Shown piece after piece: positions 2,679-13,738 of a stretch of DNA of 14,294 nucleotides. The stretch's first letter is position 1. The number at the start of each line of letters is the position of its first letter. Under the pieces are notes generated by a model. The model ran no database searches. It saw nothing but the letters and a program-made list of their open reading frames with translations, and had not been told where the DNA came from. A program made the position numbers and the translations under genes. Source of the DNA: a bacterium (lineage in GTDB: Bacteria; UBA9089; CG2-30-40-21; SBAY01); NCBI GenBank assembly GCA_040757115.1, contig JBFLYA010000093.1, positions 1 to 14,294 of the forward strand, given 5' to 3'.

Positions 2679-3065
2679 ACTTGAATCCATTGCATAAATT
2701 ATGATACAATTCCAGCTGTTGCGGCAAACAGGATGAAGGTTTCTCACAGCATTCCCGCAGAGACGAACCAGAGAAAATCAGATAGCGGTCAGCATCCATA
2801 GAGAAGTAGGGTAGGCGGTCGAGGGGCCAGGAACCACAACCAAAACGAAGGACGAGAGGCGTACTACAACCGTAGATAGGAACTACAGAGGAGAGCAAAA
2901 TCTAATCAAGCAGAGGAGACCTTGGGTCCAAGGGATATTGCCTAACCCGGCGCTGCACCTGACTGCGGGGGGCTGTGCCGTAATTAGAGTTTTGTGGTAT
3001 CTCAAGCTTTTATCTTGTTTACAAAGTTTGGTGGTAATCCGCCCCGCAGCAGGTGAGCTTTATCG
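2673..3065 (+). mobile_element. Small cassette without a convincing gene
   Basis: The cassette has matched ends (GTTAGGC at 2672, GCCTAAC at 2940), so it is intact as a mobile unit. The 260-bp body has no good open frame on +. The frame from ATG 2733 reads to the TAA in the attC core at 2943-2945, the place where real cassette genes end, but is broken by two TAG codons at 2799 and 2877. The only longer frame on - (2617-2898) runs into the attC and looks spurious. The body is less AT-rich than its neighbours. It may be a decayed gene or a non-coding cassette; I do not recognise a product or an RNA family. Confidence 0.6.
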
Positions 3066-3071
3066 TTAGCG
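2940..3071 (+). repeat. attC site of small cassette
   Basis: R'' GCCTAAC at 2940-2946 and R' GTTAGCG at 3065-3071, 132 bp. Arms GCACCTGACTGCGGGG and CCCCGCAGCAGGTGAGC pair with one unmatched base in the left arm, as expected of attC. The TTAGCG end belongs to the large following cassette, which closes with CGCTAAC at 9007. Confidence 0.9.
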
Positions 3072-3097
3072 GAAATTTTGCTTAAAAAGGTAGAATA

Positions 3098-3511
3098 ATG
3101 AACAAAACAAAACTTGGTTCAGAAACGGCAAAAGGAGGATTTGCAAACGAGAAAGCAATTTGTAAAAAATTCAATGACTGGGAAAAGGATATAGAAGCAC
3201 AGAAATGGCTTAAAATAATGGGATATGATATTAAAAAACTTGATTCTGTCCAAGCAATTCAAATTCCTACCAGAATAAAGAAGATTGAATTAAGTAAGTT
3301 TGAAGTTAAAGAAGAAGAATATGAGCAATTTGTGAGATTTAAAAAGGCAGATGCTCAAATAAGAATTATCATAAAGATTAGAAATATACTAAAAATTGAG
3401 AACTTATCACTAAAGAAAGCAAATTCAGATGCTGATTATAATCAAATTGACAAAAGAACCATTGTAGACTATCAAGAGATGTGGAGGTTTGATGATATGC
3501 CTTTGAATTGA
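3098..3511 (+). pseudogene. HinP1I-like restriction endonuclease, N-terminal remnant
   Basis: The 137 residues resemble the N-terminal half of HinP1I, a type II endonuclease of about 247 residues that cuts GCGC. Shared blocks recalled from the known enzyme are LGSETAKGGFANEKAI (cf. LGSKTAKDGFKNEKDI), YNQIDKR (cf. FNQIDKH) and DYQEMWRFDD (cf. HYQEMWKFDD). In HinP1I the active site is D62-x18-Q81-x-K83. Here the aspartate lies in KADAQ (residues 82-86) and the spacing and lysine are kept, but glutamine is replaced by serine (SLK). The frame stops right after the FDD block and no continuation is found in the next 90 bp in any frame, so the C-terminal half is lost. The start ATG lies 27 bp after attC behind an AAAGGT site. 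It is probably inactive, though a short repurposed protein cannot be excluded. Confidence 0.72.
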
Positions 3512-3601
3512 AATGTCTTTAGAACCATAAATGAAAGGCAAAGAGAAGAAAAGAGTTTTTTAAATTAGCACAAATTACAAGCACCTTAAAAAGGAGTAAA
3601 A

Positions 3602-3790
3602 ATGCATAAGGATTTTAGATGTTATATGGGATGGCGGGAAAATCCATCAGGAACAGGAGAAGCTACCGTAGTTGTAATTCCATTAGGAGATGGATTGACC
3701 GATAAGCAATTAGGTAAATTATTGAGGCCGTTGAGAGTAACAACATTTAGTGAAGAAACAATTGATTTTAGAGTTCAAGAGCTGGATTAG
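3602..3790 (+). CDS. Small protein of unknown function (62 aa)
   Basis: This 62-residue frame starts with ATG 7-8 bp after a good AAGGAG Shine-Dalgarno site and ends with TAG 16 bp before the methyltransferase, so it is likely translated as the first gene of that operon. The N-terminal part has glycines and aromatics (CYMGWRENPSGTGEA), then a hydrophobic strand VVVIPLG and a C-terminal basic-then-acidic segment. There is no signal peptide, membrane segment or cysteine pair. I do not recognise the family. Its position suggests an accessory or regulatory subunit of the kinase-ATPase operon, which is inference from spacing only. Confidence 0.6.
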   Translation: MHKDFRCYMGWRENPSGTGEATVVVIPLGDGLTDKQLGKLLRPLRVTTFSEETIDFRVQELD

Positions 3791-3806
3791 GAGGTAAAGA
3801 AGATAG

Positions 3807-4910
3807 ATGAAAATGTGTGCAATTCAGTCTTTGACTAATAATGAATACAAGGAAAATACATTTCACCAACTTTCACCGTATTTGGGGAAACTAAAATCTA
3901 ATATAGCAAAAAAACTAATATTAAGTTATACTAAACCATATGATACTATTTGTGATCCATTTTCAGGTTCGGGGACTGTTGCATTAGAATCTTTAACACT
4001 TAATAGACATATTATAGCAAACGATATTAATCCCTATGCAGTTATTTTGACTAAAGCAAAAATGTACCCTCCAAATTCGTTAGATGAAGCTTTGGAAAGA
4101 GCAGAATATTATCTTAATTGTACCAAAGAAGAAATGACCAGGATATCTTTATCAAGAATACCAAAATGGGTAAGAACCTTTTTCCATCCAACTACCCTTA
4201 AAGAGACCTTATCGTTAGTTAGATTATTAAAAAGAAATGAGGAATACTTTATTTTGGCCTGCGTACTTGGTATTCTTCATCATCAAAGCACGGGATTTCT
4301 TTCATATCCATCAAGCCATATAGTTCCATATCTGAGAACAGAAAAATTTCCCAAAGAAAGATTTCCAACATTATATACCTATAGAGATATTAGGCCAAGA
4401 CTTCTTAGTAAAATAAAGCGTGTATTTAGACATTTTCTCAGAATAGCTCCGATGTTATTTCGAGAATGCAAAACAGAATGTGTTGAGAAATTAGAATTAC
4501 CAGAAAATAGTATTGACGCTGTAATAACCAGCCCACCATATATGGATACATTGAGTTATGGAGGAGATAATAGATTGAGACTGTGGTTCCTGGGAATAAA
4601 CGATTATCAATACTATGATAATAAGAGTCCTCGAAATCCACAAGATTTTCATCTTTTAATAAAAAATGCGTTGAGCAGGCTTTATTTTGCATTGAAGTCA
4701 GATTCATATTGTATATTTGTAGTGGGAGAAGTGAAAAAGGGTAAGAAATCCATTAACACATCTTCAATAATTCAGGATGTTGTTCTTAGTAATGGTGGTT
4801 TTAAAATATTGAGTGTAATTGAAGATGAAATCCCCTATTCAAGGAGAATAAGAGGGAAAAGAGATACGATTAAGAAAGACTGGTTTGTTATTATGAAAAA
4901 GGAGAAATAA
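3807..4910 (+). CDS. DNA methyltransferase (N4-cytosine or N6-adenine type)
   Basis: This 367-residue protein has the two hallmarks of amino-methylating DNA methyltransferases: the S-adenosylmethionine motif I DPFSGSGT (residues 50-57, followed by ANDINPYA at 71-78) and the catalytic motif IV TSPPY (241-245) in a VITSPPYMDTLSYGG context. Motif I precedes IV with about 185 residues between, which could hold target recognition. The order differs from the beta-class enzyme at 12342-13568. SPPY is more often N4-cytosine, but base and target site cannot be read from sequence. GGAGG lies 13 bp before the ATG; a second ATG two codons later is an alternative. It ends 4 bp before the kinase-ATPase gene, so the two are probably co-translated. 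It could protect the host or mark self DNA for the downstream genes. Confidence 0.85.
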   Translation: MKMCAIQSLTNNEYKENTFHQLSPYLGKLKSNIAKKLILSYTKPYDTICDPFSGSGTVALESLTLNRHIIANDINPYAVILTKAKMYPPNSLDEALERAEYYLNCTKEEMTRISLSRIPKWVRTFFHPTTLKETLSLVRLLKRNEEYFILACVLGILHHQSTGFLSYPSSHIVPYLRTEKFPKERFPTLYTYRDIRPRLLSKIKRVFRHFLRIAPMLFRECKTECVEKLELPENSIDAVITSPPYMDTLSYGGDNRLRLWFLGINDYQYYDNKSPRNPQDFHLLIKNALSRLYFALKSDSYCIFVVGEVKKGKKSINTSSIIQDVVLSNGGFKILSVIEDEIPYSRRIRGKRDTIKKDWFVIMKKEK

Positions 4911-4914
4911 TACT

Positions 4915-7401
4915 ATGGCAGAAAGAAATTTACCTCAGGAGAATGAATTCCAAGGAGAGCAGGTGCTCGGTTATAAACTCTGCAAGGAAATTGGCAGAGG
5001 GAAAATAGGGGTAGTCTATAAGGCGTCACATTCCAGAACAGGGGATATAGCAGCTTGCAAGATAATTCCAAAAGAAAATTTGAAAAGTGGATGGGAGACC
5101 GAAATAGAGAAAATTGCAAAATTGAGTGGTATCTCAACCGTAGCACAATATAAAAAACATGCCGCAGAGCAAATTAAGGAGTTACCGTATATTTGCATAT
5201 TTTATGAGTATGTAGGCTATGGAAATAAACCTGCCCTTAATTTAAGAGAATATATAATACAAAATCCTAATCAAATCTCCTTGTTTTTTATTGATATATT
5301 AGTTCAGAAGATTTTAGAAACTTTTCATGCTATGAAAACTGTTGGTATTAATCACAATGACCTTCATGAAGGAAATATTTTAATTTTTCATGACCCTCGC
5401 TCTATTGAACCAGAAACGCCAATTATAAAAATAACAGATTTTGGAATAGGTGGTTCATACAACAAATTAGAACCTAAAGATGATTATAAACAGCTAGTTT
5501 TAATCTGTCATACCTTGCTTGAGAAATTGAGTTATTCTGAGATGGATGGAAAAGATAAATTTCTTTACGACAATTACATTGAGGATTTTTTCCCTAAAAA
5601 AGTATTAGAAACTCATCCTACAGAGGGAATATTTGTAAGAAATCCAAGAGAGCTCCTCAGAATTTTTAAAGAAGAAATCCCTCAAAAGTATTTGGAGGAA
5701 TATACCAAAAGCTACATATCCAGTATGCCAGCCAAATTAACACATCCTTTTGACTATCTACGGTGTGAACAGATAGGTAATTCATTTGAGCTCTTACATC
5801 GTCTCTATTCTGAAAAGTTTCTTGGATATTCTGATTTATTAATAAGAAATAATACTATTTTGACAGGTCCACGGGGTTGTGGAAAAACAACCATATTTAG
5901 AAATATGAGTTTAAAAACACAAATACTCGGAGATAAAATAAAAAAAGGTGAAGATTACAAGGAAAAGTATATAGGAATATATTATCATTGCAATGATTTA
6001 TATTTTGCATTTCCTTACCTTAAAGAAAAGATTTCTGATGAAAATAGAAAAGCGATAATACATTATTTCAACCTTTCAATCTTATATGAAATCTTAGACC
6101 TTTTAGAAACTTCAAAAAATAAGCCAGGGTTTGAATTAACTGATAGGACGATAGATGAATTACAAGGTTTTTTAAGAGGATACTTTCCCTCATACCAAAT
6201 ACCACCTTTAGGAACGGATATTTTGGCTCATCTAAGGTCAATAATTGTTAATGAAAAACGAATTACACGCCAATGGTTTGAAAAAGGCAGTAATGATAAG
6301 CAAAAACCATATTTTACTCCTATGGACTTTATTAGAAAGTTATGTAATTTAATTCAAACGGATATACCATGGGCAAAAAATCGGGCAATTTACTTCTTTT
6401 TAGATGATTATTCATTCCCCAATATTTCTAAGCAAATCCAAGAAACCTTACATGATTTTATCTTATTTCCAAGTGAAGGGTCTGAGTATTTTTTTAAGGT
6501 TTCTACCGAAAGTATTGTCTCTTTTCACCCATATAGTTCCAAAGGAAAATTATTGGAAGAGGGAAGAGAATATGTTGTAGTGGATCTTGGATACTTCTTC
6601 TTGCGTGATGATAAAAGAGCCGAGTCGTTCCTTTTCGAAGTAGTTAATAACCGGCTAGAAAATTCCCAAGAAATTGATGAGGCATATAAAGATATAAAGA
6701 AAATTTTGGGAGAGAGTGATTATTCAGCTAATAAACTTGCTTACGAAATTAGAGAAAAGAAGCCGGAACATGTCCATTACTATGGCTTGAATATTATAGT
6801 TAGATTATGCACTGGAGATGTTGCTCAAATCTTGGATTTAATCAAGCACATTTTTGAACAGGCTGGAGGTTATAGTCTATTTACTAAAGCAGAAGGAATT
6901 GAATTGCCAATTAAGAAAGAGATACAAAATAGGGCAATTAGGGAAGCAGGAAATAAATTTCTAAGTAACCTTGAAAACTGTCCGAATTATGGTCGAAAAT
7001 TAAGAAAGATTGCTGAGGCGTTTGGTGAGGTTGCGCATCATTTCTTGATGACAAGAAATTCAAAAAACCAGGATAAATATCCTCCATGGCAAGCAGTTAG
7101 AATTGAAGTAACAGAACCTATTGATTTAAAAGAAAGTACATTAGAGATATATAATGAATTATTGCGTTACAGCATATTTATCAGAGATATAGTAGGTAAA
7201 AGTCAATGGGGCAAAGTTGCTCCAAAACTTTATCTACGCAGATTATTGATACCAACCTTTTTACTTACTCCAAGCAAAAGGGATAACATTGGATTAAGCA
7301 AAGATAAGTTTTTAAAGTTGTTAAGAAATCCGAAAGGTTTCACAAAGGATATGAAAAAGAAAGAACCAAGAAGAAAGAGGTTGCAACCAGATGAAAGATA
7401 G
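4915..7401 (+). CDS. Protein kinase-like domain fused to P-loop ATPase
   Basis: The 828-residue protein combines a eukaryotic-type Ser/Thr kinase domain with an NTPase. Kinase features are the glycine loop EIGRGKIGVVYKA (25-37), the ATP-binding lysine in ACKII (K49), the catalytic loop HNDLHEGNIL (147-156, aspartate D149, asparagine N154) and DFG (175-177). All key catalytic residues seem present, although the loop reads HND rather than HRD. A C-lobe continues to about 270. The ATPase has Walker A GPRGCGKTT (318-326) and Walker B YFFLDD (493-498); the remaining 330 residues are predicted helical and unassigned. No membrane segment is seen. GGAG stands 10 bp before the ATG. It lies between a methyltransferase and a Rossmann-like protein. 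Kinase plus ATPase plus methylase recalls BREX/Pgl systems, but here two functions are in one chain; role in defence is inferred. Confidence 0.82.
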   Translation: MAERNLPQENEFQGEQVLGYKLCKEIGRGKIGVVYKASHSRTGDIAACKIIPKENLKSGWETEIEKIAKLSGISTVAQYKKHAAEQIKELPYICIFYEYVGYGNKPALNLREYIIQNPNQISLFFIDILVQKILETFHAMKTVGINHNDLHEGNILIFHDPRSIEPETPIIKITDFGIGGSYNKLEPKDDYKQLVLICHTLLEKLSYSEMDGKDKFLYDNYIEDFFPKKVLETHPTEGIFVRNPRELLRIFKEEIPQKYLEEYTKSYISSMPAKLTHPFDYLRCEQIGNSFELLHRLYSEKFLGYSDLLIRNNTILTGPRGCGKTTIFRNMSLKTQILGDKIKKGEDYKEKYIGIYYHCNDLYFAFPYLKEKISDENRKAIIHYFNLSILYEILDLLETSKNKPGFELTDRTIDELQGFLRGYFPSYQIPPLGTDILAHLRSIIVNEKRITRQWFEKGSNDKQKPYFTPMDFIRKLCNLIQTDIPWAKNRAIYFFLDDYSFPNISKQIQETLHDFILFPSEGSEYFFKVSTESIVSFHPYSSKGKLLEEGREYVVVDLGYFFLRDDKRAESFLFEVVNNRLENSQEIDEAYKDIKKILGESDYSANKLAYEIREKKPEHVHYYGLNIIVRLCTGDVAQILDLIKHIFEQAGGYSLFTKAEGIELPIKKEIQNRAIREAGNKFLSNLENCPNYGRKLRKIAEAFGEVAHHFLMTRNSKNQDKYPPWQAVRIEVTEPIDLKESTLEIYNELLRYSIFIRDIVGKSQWGKVAPKLYLRRLLIPTFLLTPSKRDNIGLSKDKFLKLLRNPKGFTKDMKKKEPRRKRLQPDER

Positions 7402-7459
7402 GGTTGTCTTTTTTAACCCGTAGAAGTAAGGGAAAAGTAAAAAGTAGGTAAAAGGGAAA

Positions 7460-8578
7460 ATGATGAAAAAAACAGAGAATAAAGAAAGTTTTGAAGAAAT
7501 CCTCCCTCCAATTGAGGAGTTAAAGTTAGATAATATTTCCTCCGATGCAACTATAATAGCACCGGCAGGATTTGAAGATAGATGTCTTTCATTTTTGGAT
7601 AAACTTATTATTTCTAACAAGAAAGTTGCAAATGTTATTGGCGTTGAATATGAACCATTTAGTCTAAAAAATAGAAAGAAAGAATTTGAAAGTAAAGCCG
7701 AAAAGGTTTCTTTGAACAAGGTTGAATGGATAACTTATGATAGATTTAATCCTGAAAATTTTTATGGCGATTTTGAAAAGGCAAAAGGGCTTATTAATGA
7801 AACGGCTGATGTAATAATAGATGTATCTGGAATGTCAAAATACTTGATAGTCATTCTCTTAGACATCCTTAAAGACTTTGATAAAAATATAATTATCATT
7901 TACTCTGAAGCAGAAATTTACCATCCAACTAAAGAAGAATTTAAATCAAAAAAATCGAAAAAAAGAGGAAGTCCAGAGGTAATACCTACATTCTTAACAA
8001 AAGGAATTTATAGAATAACTCTGACAACATCGCTTTCCAGTATTGCTATGCAAAATGCGCCATTATTGTTGATTGCCTTTCCCAGTTTTAATTATAAAGA
8101 ACTTACAGCACTACTGAATGAAATAACACCCCAATATCTCATTGAAATTGAAGGCAGGCCCCATGAACAACATAACTATTGGAGACGGGATGCTATTCGT
8201 GAGATTAATGAGAGGATTCCCGAGGATTTTATCTTTACTAAGATAGACAAAATAGAACATAGAGAATTGACCACTTTTAATTATATAGAAACTGTTTCGG
8301 TATTAGATGAAATCTACAAGAAATTTAGATATACACACAAATGTATAATTGCTCCTACAGGAAGTAAACTTCAATCAATAGGGGTTTTTTTCTTTAAGCA
8401 ATTGCATCTTGAAGTTCAGATTGTTTATCCTGCCGCAGAGAAATTTACAAAGGGATATACGGAAGGATGTAGGTATATATGGATGATAAAATTTCCAAAC
8501 TTTTGTAGTTATATAAAAAGTTTAGAAAACTACTCCAGAGCTAATCTAATTTCGTTAAAAGATTTGGTAACCGTTTAG
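7460..8578 (+). CDS. Two-lobed Rossmann-like protein of unknown function
   Basis: I do not recognise the exact family of this 372-residue protein. It reads as two related alpha/beta halves. Half 1 has strand-turn [11 protein letters not shown] (32-42) and [12 protein letters not shown] (118-129) followed by [15 protein letters not shown]. Half 2 has [10 protein letters not shown] (202-211) and [12 protein letters not shown] (295-306) followed by [15 protein letters not shown]. The pattern of strand, glycine or serine turn and helix after the strand is that of Rossmann or CARF-like ligand-binding folds. No nuclease motif is obvious. A run of lysines lies near 162-169. It follows the kinase-ATPase by 58 bp and precedes the methyltransferase fragment by 4 bp. 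It starts ATGATG; the first is used here and the Shine-Dalgarno site is weak. It may be the sensor or effector of the operon (inference). Confidence 0.7.
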
Positions 8579-8582
8579 TATT

Positions 8583-9003
8583 ATGGAGAAATATTTGCTT
8601 TCATTTGGGCAAAATCAGCGGATTCCTTCTGCAAGACAACTTATTTACAAGGATAGGCGAGCAAATCCACTTGGAAAAATTCCTGATGATGTGTGGCAAT
8701 TTTCAAGAATCTGTGGTACCTTTAAAGAACGGATAGGAGAACATCCATGTCAAATGCCTGAAGATTTATTAGAGCTAATAATAAAAACAAGTTCTAATGA
8801 GGGAGATTTAGTTTTAGACCCTTTTGGTGGCACAGGAACAACGGCAGCAGTTGCTAAAAGATTAAAACGGAATTACATAACGATGGAGATATCTACAGAA
8901 ATATTATAATGTTATATTGAAGAGAGTGGATGGTAAAGTTGAAATAAGAAGAAATAAAAAGGTTGAGATAGAAAAGCAGGGAACATTATTTGATATCATA
9001 TAA
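8583..9003 (+). pseudogene. DNA methyltransferase, C-terminal remnant
   Basis: The intact frame (8583-8909, 108 residues) is only the C-terminal part of a beta-class amino-methyltransferase. It has RIPSARQ, the conserved segment [16 protein letters not shown] then [10 protein letters not shown], and motif [10 protein letters not shown] (79-87) followed by YITMEIS. The N-terminal part with the SPPY catalytic motif, normally 150-200 residues, is absent; the ATG begins 4 bp after the previous stop. After the TAA at 8909 a shifted frame (from about 8906) continues without stops as NVILKRVDGKVEIRRNKK and on to TLFDII, ending at TAA 9001-9003 just before attC, which looks like the enzyme's original tail. 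It is therefore truncated and probably frameshifted. It cannot methylate by itself unless it complements another chain. Confidence 0.75.
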
Positions 9004-9006
9004 TTT

Positions 9007-9138
9007 CGCTAACCAGTCGTTGCAGCGGACGGCGGGGGACTGTGCTGTGATTGAAAGTTTTGTAGTATCTCAAGAGGTAATCGTGCTTACAAAGTTTGGT
9101 GGCGATTCTCCCCGCCGCCGCTGAACTCATCGTTAGAC
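9007..9138 (+). repeat. attC site of the 6-kb cassette
   Basis: R'' CGCTAAC at 9007-9013 and R' GTTAGAC at 9132-9138, 132 bp. Arms GCAGCGGACGGCGGGG and CCCCGCCGCCGCTGAAC pair imperfectly. The variable middle (GAAAGTTTTGTAGTATCTCA) is shared with the - strand attC sites at 11336-11468 and 13607-13738. The TTAGAC end belongs to the next, non-coding, cassette. Confidence 0.9.
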
Positions 9139-9450
9139 TAATAAAAATAATCACACAGAGACACAAAGTCACAAAGGAATTGAATAAAACAATAAACCTT
9201 TGTGTTCTTTGTGGCTTTGTGTGAGAAAATAAAAAGGAGATATTTTAGGGTCAACCGTGAATGTGGAATGCACAATAATTCGGTGAGGCAGAGGAAAAGG
9301 AAAAGACAGCGAATCAAAGCTTTTGTCTAACCCTGCGTTGCAGTTGACGGCGGGGGACTGTGCCGTGGTCAGAGTTTTGTGGTCTCTCAAAGTTTTATCT
9401 TGCTATCAAACTTTTGTGGTAATTCTCCCCGCCGCACCTGAACTTTATCG
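9133..9450 (+). mobile_element. Non-coding cassette, copy 3 (complete)
   Basis: This is the only complete copy in the window, 318 bp, bounded by GTTAGAC (9132) and R'' GTCTAAC (9325), which are complementary. It contains the inverted repeat 9152-9223, a purine-rich middle and the attC. A 73-residue frame on - (9169-9390) crosses attC and is not maintained in copy 1 because of an indel, so it is not taken as a gene. The near identity with copy 1 over about 300 bp implies recent duplication within this array. Confidence 0.82.
9152..9223. repeat. 72-bp inverted repeat, second copy
   Basis: Same sequence as 13-84: left arm 9152-9177, AT-rich loop, right arm 9197-9223 ending TTTGTGTG. It sits just inside the left end of the cassette. 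Confidence 0.75.
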
Positions 9451-9456
9451 TTAGGC
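9325..9456 (+). repeat. attC site of non-coding cassette 3
   Basis: R'' GTCTAAC at 9325-9331 and R' GTTAGGC at 9450-9456, 132 bp, nearly identical to 199-330 and 2547-2678. The TTAGGC end belongs to the second MNT-HEPN cassette. Confidence 0.9.
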
Positions 9457-9481: not shown

Positions 9482-10366
9482 ATGAAAACGAGTATAGACC
9501 ACCTTCCTGAGTATAAACGAGAGGAACTGGAAAATATTGTTGGAATCATTCGTGCCTCAGCAAAGGTTGAGATGATTATTCTTTTTGGAAGCTATGCCCG
9601 TGGAGACTTTGTGGAGTGTGATTTTCGATATGATGCTGAGGAGCAACACTTCACAAGTTATGAATCTGATTTTGACATCATGGTGATTGTGCGAGAAGAA
9701 AAAATTGTAGATGATTTCAAGATTTGGAACAAGGTTGAAAATCAAATTAGACGCAAGATCCGTACACCAGTAAACCTTATTAGGGAAGATATTGAGCATG
9801 TCAATGAACAACTCTCAGTTGGCAGATACTTCTATGCTGATGTTAAAAAGGAAGGTGTACTGCTTTACGATTCAAAACGATTCCAACTGGCAAGAGCAAG
9901 AAAACTTACCCCAGGAATAAGAAAGGCGTTGGCAGAGGAGGATCATAAACTTTGGTTTCCGAAAGCGAAGCAGTTTTTTGTGCATTATAAGCTTGACTTT
10001 GAAAAAGGTTGGAATAATTTAGGAGCCTTTAATCTCCATCAGACCACTGAAGCTCTATACAGCGGTACTTCCCTTGTCCTTACAAGCTACAAACCTAGAA
10101 CACACGACTTAGAGAAATTAACAGAGCGGATGGAGAAGATCGATCTAAAGTTTTGTGAGATTTTCCCAAGAAAAGAAGGTGAAGAAAAGAGATTGTTTGA
10201 ACTCCTCAAGAAAGCCTATGTTGATGCAAGATACAGCAAGAATTATAAAATAACAAAACAAGAACTTGAATACCTTGCTGAGCGAGTGAAAAAACTACGC
10301 AGATTATCATTGAAAAAATGTCGTGAGAAGTTTAAGCAATTTGAACAGGAAATTAAAAAAGCCTAA
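9482..10366 (+). CDS. Nucleotidyltransferase-HEPN fusion protein, copy 2
   Basis: This 294-residue paralogue of the protein at 1547-2434 aligns along its length with one gap near the C-terminus; by hand count about 84% of residues agree. GSYARGD (36-42) and SDFDIMV (62-68) of the nucleotidyltransferase are intact, as are NLHQTTE and RTHDLEKL of the HEPN region. Changes cluster in residues 164-196 and 222-231. The ATG at 9482 is chosen because it matches the start of copy 1 and follows GTGAGGA; an in-frame GTG at 9467 is less likely. The stop TAA lies in the GCCTAAC core at 10361-10367. Its attC is missing apart from the cores, so this cassette is probably no longer excisable by itself. The proteins may form AMPylation-type toxin-antitoxin or nucleotide-sensing modules. 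Confidence 0.86.
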   Translation: MKTSIDHLPEYKREELENIVGIIRASAKVEMIILFGSYARGDFVECDFRYDAEEQHFTSYESDFDIMVIVREEKIVDDFKIWNKVENQIRRKIRTPVNLIREDIEHVNEQLSVGRYFYADVKKEGVLLYDSKRFQLARARKLTPGIRKALAEEDHKLWFPKAKQFFVHYKLDFEKGWNNLGAFNLHQTTEALYSGTSLVLTSYKPRTHDLEKLTERMEKIDLKFCEIFPRKEGEEKRLFELLKKAYVDARYSKNYKITKQELEYLAERVKKLRRLSLKKCREKFKQFEQEIKKA

Positions 10367-10379
10367 CCCATCGTTAGGC
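10361..10379. repeat. Collapsed attC at convergent array junction
   Basis: GCCTAAC (10361-10367), CCATC, GTTAGGC (10373-10379) form a 19-bp inverted repeat. The + strand core holds the stop of MNT-HEPN copy 2, and the - strand core holds the stop of the nuclease gene. The normal hairpin arms of about 118 bp are gone. The left flank GCCTAACCC and right flank ATCGTTAGGCACT each match the ends of complete attC sites at 2940 and 2672, consistent with deletion of the palindromic stem. It marks the point where array polarity reverses. Confidence 0.78.
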
Positions 10380-11335: not shown

Positions 11336-11468
11336 GCCTAACGATTGAGTTCAGCGGCGGCGGGGAAAATTGCCACTAAACTTTATAAGCACGATTGCCT
11401 ATTGAGATACTACAAAACTTTCAATTACGCCACAATCCCCCGCCGTCCTCTGCAACAACTGGTTAGCG
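11336..11468 (-). repeat. attC site of MjaI-like R-M cassette
   Basis: Read on -, R'' CGCTAAC is at 11468-11462 and R' GTTAGGC at 11342-11336, 133 bp, one base longer than the others. The middle matches the 9007-9138 and 13607-13738 sites. Its orientation is opposite to the attC sites left of 10361. Confidence 0.88.
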
Positions 11469-11522
11469 AAATTATAATCTTCCTCCATCGCAATAGATAG
11501 ATTTCCTTCGCATCTACTGAGG

Positions 11523-12115
11523 TTATAAGTCTTCAAAGAAGATATTTATCCCATCCTTTACTTTGTCATAATAGATGATATGTACCCCGATAATTTCTGG
11601 TAACATTTGCTTTGATTCGTAGGTTTGGGGGGTTTGATGCTTATGGGAACTTCATCTATATAACCATCTATTCCCTTTGCTTCATCCTCAGGGTCAGACA
11701 TTCTGTATGCTTTCCCTAAGGTTTCGGCAACGCGTTTCATTATAGCCTCTTGGAATTTAAGACCGACAAATGTCTTCACAATTACTAAGTCCTTAACCCA
11801 GTCCTCAATCATTTGGGCATCAATGAGGCTAATAACCTCTTTGAAGTTTTCCATCATCTGCAGAATTTTCATCTTCGCTTTTTCGATAGCCTCAGGGTAT
11901 TTATTCAAGTACCATTTTTCCCATTCTTCAAGTTTTTTACCTTTGAATTCCTTAATCAGTTCACTCATTTGCCCAACAACTTCGGGCCTGGTTCCCTGGG
12001 CATTTTGATTCGCCAAATTGATAAGTTGGGTAGCGTATTTCGGAAATGAAACAACTTCCGCATCAAGCAGTTGCGTAATATCAATTCTATAAAGTTTTTG
12101 CCTTTTTGTCAACAC
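11523..12115 (-). pseudogene. MjaI-like restriction endonuclease, frameshifted
   Basis: The uninterrupted frame (12115 to 11558, 185 residues) resembles the MjaI family of type II endonucleases (CTAG): LYRIDITQLLDAE, RPEVVGQMSELIKEF (43-57), WEKWYLNKYPEAI, then KTFVGLKFQEAI and GIDGYIDEVPISIKPP (148-163), with D150 and K161 as likely catalytic residues. After IKPP the frame becomes unlike the family. Adding one C to the six-C tract (G run 11627-11632 on +) restores a family-like tail, QTYESKQMLPEIIGVH then IIYYDKVKDGINIF, ending at TAA 11525-11523 and giving 197 residues. This is a disabling mutation, a sequencing or assembly error, or a phase-variable tract. The CTAG-type methyltransferase lies upstream on the same strand (226-bp gap). 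Confidence 0.78.
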
Positions 12116-12341
12116 GAATGCACACGAATAAGAAGCAAATATTCCCCCTTAATAAAGGGAGTTAGGTGGTTGTTGACCCATAGGCGTTAAAATATAAGGC
12201 TTATTAAAGAGGCAAAAATTAACTAAAATTGATATAACTTCCTCATTTTTAATTTTGATTTTCTTCATGAATGTTTTCGTCCTCCAATAGCCGCCTTAAA
12301 CCTTTCATAGTATCGGAACGGAAAAGTTTCATCGAGCCGCA
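12116..12341 (-). other. Gap between methyltransferase and endonuclease
   Basis: This 226-bp AT-rich stretch has no clear gene. Two short - strand frames are visible: 27 codons from ATG 12332 to TAA 12249, starting 9 bp after the methyltransferase stop, and 39 codons from ATG 12268 to TAA 12149, overlapping the first. Neither resembles a control (C) protein or other known family, and the pair could be remains of one broken gene. TTCCCCCTTAATAAAGGGAG (about 12143-12162) can form a small hairpin. Confidence 0.45.
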
Positions 12342-13568
12342 CTAAATTCGTTCGCAAAAATGGAGATTAATGAAAGTTTTATTTTTAAGATACAAATAAG
12401 AGACTAAATGACTGGCTTCATCGTATTTGATCTGGTCAAATTTAAGGTAAATGCTTTGCCCTTTTAGTTTATCCCATAACCAGTTAATAGCTTCATTCTC
12501 TCTACCCGATACTGCCTTAATACCTATCAATCTCACAATAAGATCATTCGTAAGCTCCATCTCATTCGGGGTAATCACACGCCTCACGCGTAGATATTCT
12601 TCTTTTCCATTGCTATTAATGTCAATTTTCGAGCCGAAGGTCATCTTTCTGGGGTCAATCTTTTTATCAAATTGGACTGTATCATGGAATATGTAGGGTA
12701 ATGTTTGTATTTGCTGTCGATAATCTATCTCCTTCCGTTCTGGTTTAACAATCTCAATAATGCTTTTATCAAAGATATCTCTTTGCTCGATACCCAATTT
12801 CTTTCTAATGATGGGTAAAAAAGACTCATTTATTTCATAACCTATCGAGTTTCTATGAAGTTTTTTTGCAGTGAGAGAAGTTGTACCACTGCCCAGGAAA
12901 GGGTCAAGTACGGTTTCTCCAACAAAACTAAACATTTTAATCAATCGTCTGGGAAGTTCCTCAGGAAACATAGCCAGATGATGATCCTGTTTTTCACCAG
13001 GAAAATTCCAATGTCCGGCGAAATATTCGTTCCATTCTTCTACGGATAGGATAGATTGTTCCTTTGCTGTTTTATTGATTTTTGGAGAGCATCCTGGCTT
13101 CTTAAATAGTAGAATAAACTCATAATCAATCTTAACAATACCATTCCGTGGATAAGGATATGAACCCATAATGGTGGCACCGCCTGTGGTATTGCAGGTT
13201 GTTACTTTTTGCCAAATGATGGCTCCCATATAATCAAACCCGGTGGACTCGCAAAATTTGATAATTTCGGTTCTTATGGGAATTACCTTGTATCGGCCAT
13301 AATAAACGGCTCTTGCGAATTGGTCTCCGATATTGATACACAATCGACACCCCGTGTGTAGTGTCCGATAGCACTCCTTCCAGACTAAGTTCAGATTGTT
13401 GATGTATTCTTCATATGTATCATGGAAGCCAATCTGGTGAATATTGTCGTAGTCCTTAAGTTGCCAATATGGGGGTGAGGTTATAATAAGGTGGACAGAA
13501 TCATTACTCACCTCCTGCATAGATCTTGAATCGGCAATTATAATTTTATGTCGTGTCATATCTTGCAT
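12342..13568 (-). CDS. N4-cytosine DNA methyltransferase (MjaI/CTAG-like R-M)
   Basis: This is a beta-class methyltransferase of about 408 residues. Catalytic motif IV TSPPYW comes first (near residue 30) and the S-adenosylmethionine motif DPFLGSGTT near 222-230, followed by SIGYEINESF. TSPPYW is typical of N4-cytosine enzymes. About 150 further residues follow motif I and may contribute to target recognition. Association with an MjaI-like nuclease suggests CTAG as the target, by family rather than by direct proof. The start is taken as ATG 13568, 9 bp after a GGGG-containing site; an in-frame GTG at 13574 would add two residues but leaves little spacing. It is the first gene of a 2.27-kb cassette (11342-13612). 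It appears intact, so methylation may persist although the nuclease is frameshifted. Confidence 0.85.
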   Translation of the reverse strand: MQDMTRHKIIIADSRSMQEVSNDSVHLIITSPPYWQLKDYDNIHQIGFHDTYEEYINNLNLVWKECYRTLHTGCRLCINIGDQFARAVYYGRYKVIPIRTEIIKFCESTGFDYMGAIIWQKVTTCNTTGGATIMGSYPYPRNGIVKIDYEFILLFKKPGCSPKINKTAKEQSILSVEEWNEYFAGHWNFPGEKQDHHLAMFPEELPRRLIKMFSFVGETVLDPFLGSGTTSLTAKKLHRNSIGYEINESFLPIIRKKLGIEQRDIFDKSIIEIVKPERKEIDYRQQIQTLPYIFHDTVQFDKKIDPRKMTFGSKIDINSNGKEEYLRVRRVITPNEMELTNDLIVRLIGIKAVSGRENEAINWLWDKLKGQSIYLKFDQIKYDEASHLVSYLYLKNKTFINLHFCERI

Positions 13569-13606
13569 ATCCACTTACCCCTTCTTTTGTTTGTCATCAA
13601 TCGGGT

Positions 13607-13738
13607 AGCTAACAACTGAGTTCAGCGGCGGCGGGGAGAATCGCCACCAAACTTTGTAAGCACGATTACCTATTGAAATACTATAAAACTTTCAATCACG
13701 GCACAGCCCCCGCCGTCCGCTGCAACGATTTGTTAGAC
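13607..13738 (-). repeat. attC site of HicBA cassette
   Basis: Read on -, R'' GTCTAAC is at 13738-13732 and R' GTTAGCT at 13613-13607, 132 bp. Arms GCAGCGGACGGCGGGG and CCCCGCCGCCGCTGAAC pair imperfectly. The R' end belongs to the R-M cassette, whose R'' is CGCTAAC; these differ at the last position, the only imperfect pairing among complete cassettes. Confidence 0.88.

Follow-up and report, generated by a model that had tools for sequence, protein, structure and literature searches.

Defence genes located between attC recombination sites are established for V. cholerae, V. parahaemolyticus and mobile integrons (see the review PMC12409362 and, cited there, Darracq 2025, Kieffer 2025 and Getz 2025). 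Integrons are also known from archaea, where their cargo includes genes for restriction and methylation (PMC9668308), and fused gene cassettes, e.g., blaGES-1/aacA4, are excisable as one unit (PMC4670013). The sequence described here is 14,294 nt in length (the window) and represents contig JBFLYA010000093.1 (C93) of a 4.3-Mb bacterial draft genome of 462 contigs (GCA_040757115.1). It has a 6-kb unit between two attC sites. Similar to the defence-gene cassettes, the unit belongs to a long chromosomal array and has defence-type genes flanked by attC sites, but the putative defence operon is 5.1 kb and is situated inside a broken restriction-modification (R-M) cassette. As in blaGES-1/aacA4, several genes form one attC-bounded unit; however, fused cassettes show partial or total loss of the internal attC, whereas in the window there is no attC remnant and foreign DNA appears to replace the middle of a cassette. 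The 6-kb unit is very probably an R-M cassette whose middle has been replaced by an independent operon encoding a DNA methyltransferase, a kinase-ATPase and a CARF protein.

The first and last regions of the unit, when aligned with their relatives, represent the broken halves of one HinP1I-like R-M pair. The intact homologue of the outer restriction endonuclease matches R.HinP1I (PDB 1ynm) over nearly the whole length with an E value of 4.7e-56, but in contrast to R.HinP1I-type systems the endonuclease is of a type paired with an N4/N6 methyltransferase. The endonuclease fragment has 72% identity over residues 1–133 to the intact endonuclease from a genome of the same family (G002, contig C183), and the methyltransferase fragment has 87% identity to the C-terminal part of the intact methyltransferase encoded beside it. 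A full-length endonuclease gene with an adjacent full-length methyltransferase gene is present in relatives; both genes are truncated in the window and are dead there. The open reading frame (ORF) called at positions 8583–8909 is the methyltransferase remnant with a foreign start. A first-pass annotation, made from the letters of the window, had described the unit as a single operon of six regions. This does not hold for the outer two, as positions 3098–3496 and 8604–9000 are the R-M halves, which are intact and contiguous in 15 relatives.

A scan of genome_contigs shows the endonuclease and methyltransferase genes adjacent, in this order and within about 15 bp, in 15 genomes including G002, and an insert between the two is found in none of these (0/15). 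The hosts of the intact pair are Cloacimonadota, Chlorobi, Clostridia, Planctomycetota, other groups and two archaeal metagenome-assembled genomes (MAGs). In G002 an attC remnant is directly 3' of the pair. The position directly after the methyltransferase gene is occupied by an attC in L086 and by an attC remnant in L075, as it is in the window. L086 is from a Thermodesulfovibrionia MAG and has an N-terminally truncated endonuclease and an intact methyltransferase in a 1.7-kb cassette, which ends in an attC detected by covariance model (7820–7879). In L087, from an archaeal MAG (Methanomicrobia), repeated attC-like sites with a spacing of 1,760 bp enclose the pair. The cassette start seen in the window (GTTANCGGAAATTTTGCTTAAA..ATG) precedes the endonuclease gene in L087, L088, L090 and L093, and more loosely in L092 and L108. 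The 3' ends of the relatives' R-M cassettes (ATTTCCGNTAAC) mirror the start of the cassette in the window, as judged by eye. This common start and end indicate that the frame of the 6-kb unit is that of an R-M cassette.

Two of these relatives have further properties. The L087 cassette (6036–7848), with an 89% identical methyltransferase, may represent a transfer between domains. In L086 (6500–6600) the endonuclease lacks the N-terminal part up to codon 134, exactly where the copy in the window (3490–3500) loses the C-terminal part, and the beginning of a different short gene precedes it as an in-frame fusion.

When the unit is aligned with six intact relatives, the breakpoints are at 3496/3497 and 8603/8604, with an additional 84-bp deletion inside the methyltransferase remnant. 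The part lost from the R-M cassette, about 0.8 kb, encodes the C-terminal half of the endonuclease together with the methyltransferase's catalytic half. A search of the genome with the 5,107-bp insert shows a single copy. The insert is bracketed by neither direct nor inverted repeats and has no target duplication or attC remnant. Transposon insertion was considered and set aside, as terminal repeats and a target duplication are lacking; integrase-mediated insertion at a secondary site in the endonuclease gene was also set aside, as the breakpoints show no G^TT junction or attC.

The borders of the unit are those of a cassette. The opening GTTAGCG (3065–3071) and the closing CGCTAAC (9007–9013) are exact complements at the positions given in the first-pass annotation, and a cut at G^TT yields a unit of 6,067 bp (3066–9132). 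Both flanking attC sites are 132 bp and fold as single strands with an L stem and an extrahelical base. A covariance model was built from eight of the window's nine attC sites, with both flanking sites in the training set. It reveals no internal attC between 3072 and 9006, where the best score with filters off is 9.1 bits compared with 143–158 bits for true sites; the claim that no attC lies between the ends is thus upheld. A generic scan of the segment for R''/R' palindromes produced 11 matches (shuffled sequences: mean 7.5, maximum 13), with none at the insert breakpoints. The complementary R'/R'' ends, the folded 3' attC and the lack of an internal attC are properties of an integron cassette. 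Matching ends are found in 36 of 80 neighbouring attC pairs in the genome (45%, with 19% expected), which is a moderate excess over chance. However, the GTTAGCG type is rare (1/80 starts and 2/80 ends), and the end match of the 6-kb unit is therefore informative.

The unit is also far larger than the usual cassette, as had been claimed. The median spacing between attC sites is 897 bp, and 6,067 bp is the second longest among 89 neighbouring pairs on the array contigs retrieved. Only a spacing of 6.5 kb on contig C38 exceeds it; this stretch contains hisS and hisG and consequently represents chromosomal DNA between array pieces and not a cassette. No true cassette-like unit larger than the 6-kb one was seen in the genome.

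The first-pass annotation had explained this size by a native single cassette with a six-region defence operon. The single attC-bounded unit, the location of all genes on one strand and the rare matching ends are consistent with such a cassette. It is nevertheless extremely unlikely, because both outer ORFs are halves left from a different, broken system, and relatives of the operon are found without the outer R-M genes just as R-M relatives are found without the operon. What stands of the proposal is one attC-bounded unit with a defence-like operon inside, and not the capture of six regions as one operon. A second possibility is that several cassettes were fused by loss of internal attC sites, with the operon as a cassette of its own between one 5' and one 3' R-M fragment. 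Fusions with a truncated attC do occur in this genome (a half attC at 2432–2456 followed by a 220-bp module), the L086 endonuclease is fused to the start of another cassette, and excision of fused cassettes as a single unit is known. Such a fusion is still improbable here: neither inner junction has an attC remnant, the outer halves come from neighbouring genes of a single R-M pair and keep its gene order, and the outer ends of the unit match, whereas apparent fusions (L086, and the MjaI-type unit of the window described below) have mismatched ends. A chimeric assembly was also considered, since the draft genome is rich in repeats, and about 130 similar attC sites and 462 contigs make the order of the array doubtful. 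It is very unlikely, as both junctions are in unique coding sequence outside of repeats, the R-M halves have the right order and orientation, and the genome contains the insert only once and has the missing endonuclease half nowhere else.

The reading preferred is replacement of the middle of an R-M cassette, and the size of the unit would then be due to invasion. The ancestor would have been an integron cassette with two genes and a length of about 1.76 kb, made up of a start core, a HinP1I-like endonuclease gene, an N4/N6 methyltransferase gene and an attC. About 0.8 kb of its middle would have been swapped for 5,107 bp with the independent operon. Entry of the operon was probably by illegitimate recombination, given that there is no attC remnant, terminal repeat or target duplication. 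The outer attC sites would have been left untouched, so that the composite still looks like one cassette and would in principle remain a substrate for the integron integrase. There are points that weigh against this interpretation. The 18-bp R-M stretch at 8604–8621 could be a chance match, in which case the right breakpoint would be at 8622, and both junctions come from a 462-contig draft assembly. The CARF assignment comes from profile matches and a weak structure model, the defence role is deduced from domain content and a PADLOC entry, and excision of the 6-kb unit as a circle is only inferred.

The insert consists of a 62-amino acid (aa) ORF and three genes, a methyltransferase, a kinase-ATPase and a CARF6-like gene (Table 1). 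The methyltransferase shows 38–39% identity to its counterparts in L079 and L112. The 828-aa kinase-ATPase protein matches the PADLOC entry CARF6--CARF_STK_AAA with an E value of 5.5e-27, and alignment shows that the kinase HxD..N and DFG motifs and the Walker A and B motifs are all present. The catalytic motifs of the inner genes are intact, in contrast to the dead R-M genes. A single-sequence AlphaFold2 model of the 372-aa protein has a mean predicted local distance difference test score of 43.6 and is confident only at about residues 21–150. A Foldseek search with this partial model gave weak matches that include Cdn1, Card1, Cam1, Can2 and Csa3, all with E above 0.001, and a sequence search of PDB with the CARF alignment gave nothing convincing.

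The kinase, AAA ATPase and CARF6 modules of CARF6--CARF_STK_AAA in PADLOC-DB all match profiles in the window, but in the window the modules are split over two genes and are preceded by a DNA methyltransferase gene. We know of no experiment on a methyltransferase with a split CARF6/STK/AAA system. Type 2 bacteriophage exclusion (BREX) and phage growth limitation (Pgl) systems also combine a DNA methyltransferase, a protein kinase and an ORC/CDC6-like ATPase (PMC12839542). The operon in the window differs from these in that it has no PglX- or PglW-type protein of full architecture and has an additional CARF protein; PglZ is also absent, with no match among the proteins of the unit.

The order methyltransferase, kinase-ATPase, CARF is maintained at G046 and G014. 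It is also kept on a plasmid of Bradyrhizobium quebecense, where the kinase and ATPase are separate genes. In G163 the kinase, ATPase and CARF modules are fused in one 1,218-aa protein beside the same kind of methyltransferase, and contig C55 of the window's own genome has a more distant version of the operon without the kinase domain. A DNA methyltransferase gene precedes the kinase module at all loci seen. Searches with the attC model, which took in G046, G014 and C55 and left out the Bradyrhizobium plasmid and G163, detected no site at these three operon loci. As far as scanned, the operon relatives are therefore found only outside of attC borders, an outcome that had been named as evidence against the cassette proposal; this is not the case for the outer R-M genes. 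The kinase-ATPase is found at E below 1e-30 in 4 of 386 genomes searched, its own genome included, and the operon is thus rare. No relatives were found with the 828-aa protein in genome_contigs or with its alignment in viral_contigs. Literature searches, with the CARF classification paper outside their coverage, showed no match for a CARF-kinase-methyltransferase combination. On the Bradyrhizobium plasmid (L112, 9843–10766, annotated) and at G046 (L079, 826–2259, read from the translation), a gene for a ThyX-type thymidylate synthase lies next to the operon. It is on different sides of the operon at the two loci and is absent from the window.

The domain content and the PADLOC entry for the fused form suggest that the operon is a candidate anti-phage signalling system, which is its likely role. 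The CARF protein, a predicted sensor, would bind an infection signal such as a cyclic oligonucleotide, the kinase-ATPase would serve as a switch or effector, and the methyltransferase would mark self DNA or have a regulatory function. The genome has an intact integron integrase gene (G000:C39, 368.6 bits), and the 6-kb unit could therefore still be excised; mobility of the composite as one unit is possible. A second copy of the composite was not found. We suggest tentatively, and consider rather unlikely, that the composite is still a working 6-kb cassette and that the integron gains a non-cassette, multi-gene defence system by invasion of an existing cassette, with the system riding on its attC ends. 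Broken integron integrase genes are also present (G000:C118, 6329–7322, and contigs C63, C30 and C324).

The new elements here are the nesting of the cassette, an operon that is conserved but uncharacterised, and an R-M cassette common to both domains. Large 'multi-gene cassettes' can be nested, with the frame of one cassette and another system inside, and claims on integron capture should consequently check inner junctions and not attC borders alone. The operon of methyltransferase, kinase-ORC/CDC6 ATPase and CARF genes is maintained in several unrelated bacteria, and one R-M cassette is common to archaeal and bacterial MAGs.

Table 1. Features of the 6-kb unit and its flanking attC sites (window coordinates; CM, covariance model)
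Feature	Position	Strand	Properties
Upstream attC	2940–3071	+	R' core GTTAGCG (3065–3071) opens the unit; CM 150.2 bits; single-strand fold with extrahelical base
Start of putative ancestral R-M cassette, (G)TTAGCGGAAATTTTGCTTAAAAAGGTAGAATA	3066–3097	+	Similar start before the endonuclease gene in relatives
Truncated HinP1I-like endonuclease	3098–3511	+	Homology ends at 3496 (residues 1–133 of 278), then foreign codons and stop
5,107-bp insert	3497–8603	+	Replaces about 0.8 kb of R-M cassette; single copy in genome
62-aa ORF	3602–3790	+	No family match, no relatives
N4/N6 DNA methyltransferase, 367 aa	3807–4910	+	Pfam N6_N4_Mtase 2.1e-15; DPFSGSG and SPPY motifs
Ser/Thr kinase fused to ORC-CDC6-like ATPase, 828 aa	4915–7401	+	Pfam Pkinase 1.4e-16, ORC-CDC6-like 4e-46
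CARF6-like protein, 372 aa, predicted nucleotide sensor	7460–8578	+	PADLOC CARF6 6.9e-22, residues 28–345
R-M methyltransferase remnant (C-terminal part)	8604–9000	+	84-bp internal deletion at 8621/8622; frameshift near 8890
attC of R-M cassette	9007–9138	+	Closing R'' core CGCTAAC; recombination after G9132; CM 148.7 bits

The window has nine full attC sites of 132–133 bp (six on the plus strand and three on the minus strand) and two remnants. Covariance model searches detect about 130 sites of this type in the genome and 88 in a genome of the same genus. Rfam matches in the window were confined to weak miRNA hits, far under gathering scores, and promoter and terminator scans were no higher than shuffle level.

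A gene-less cassette of 318 bp (9133–9450) is immediately downstream of the 6-kb unit. It recurs in the window (220-bp stretches at 109–328, 2457–2676 and 9235–9454), and its 220-bp 3' part, which includes the attC, is joined to the half attC at 2432–2456. Of 80 cassettes in the genome, 40 have the same end type, GTCTAAC, which suggests repeated fusion or copying of the 318-bp cassette. Between 9456 and 11336 the array changes strand, and two cassette series converge on a 19-bp palindrome (10361–10379) that consists of R'' and R' only. A nucleotidyltransferase-HEPN gene is present as two diverged copies in separate cassettes (1547–2434 and 9482–10366), whose DNA is 84% alike over the first 300 bp. 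On the minus strand at 11336–13738, an MjaI-type restriction endonuclease and a methyltransferase are encoded in one attC-bounded unit of 2.3 kb. Its ends are mismatched (GTTAGCT and CGCTAAC), which suggests fusion or deletion. Another multi-gene cassette in the genome is a 3.8-kb unit with matching ends (L052, 2166–5805; G000:C168) that encodes a BsuBI/PstI-type endonuclease, an Eco57I-type methylase and a third gene.

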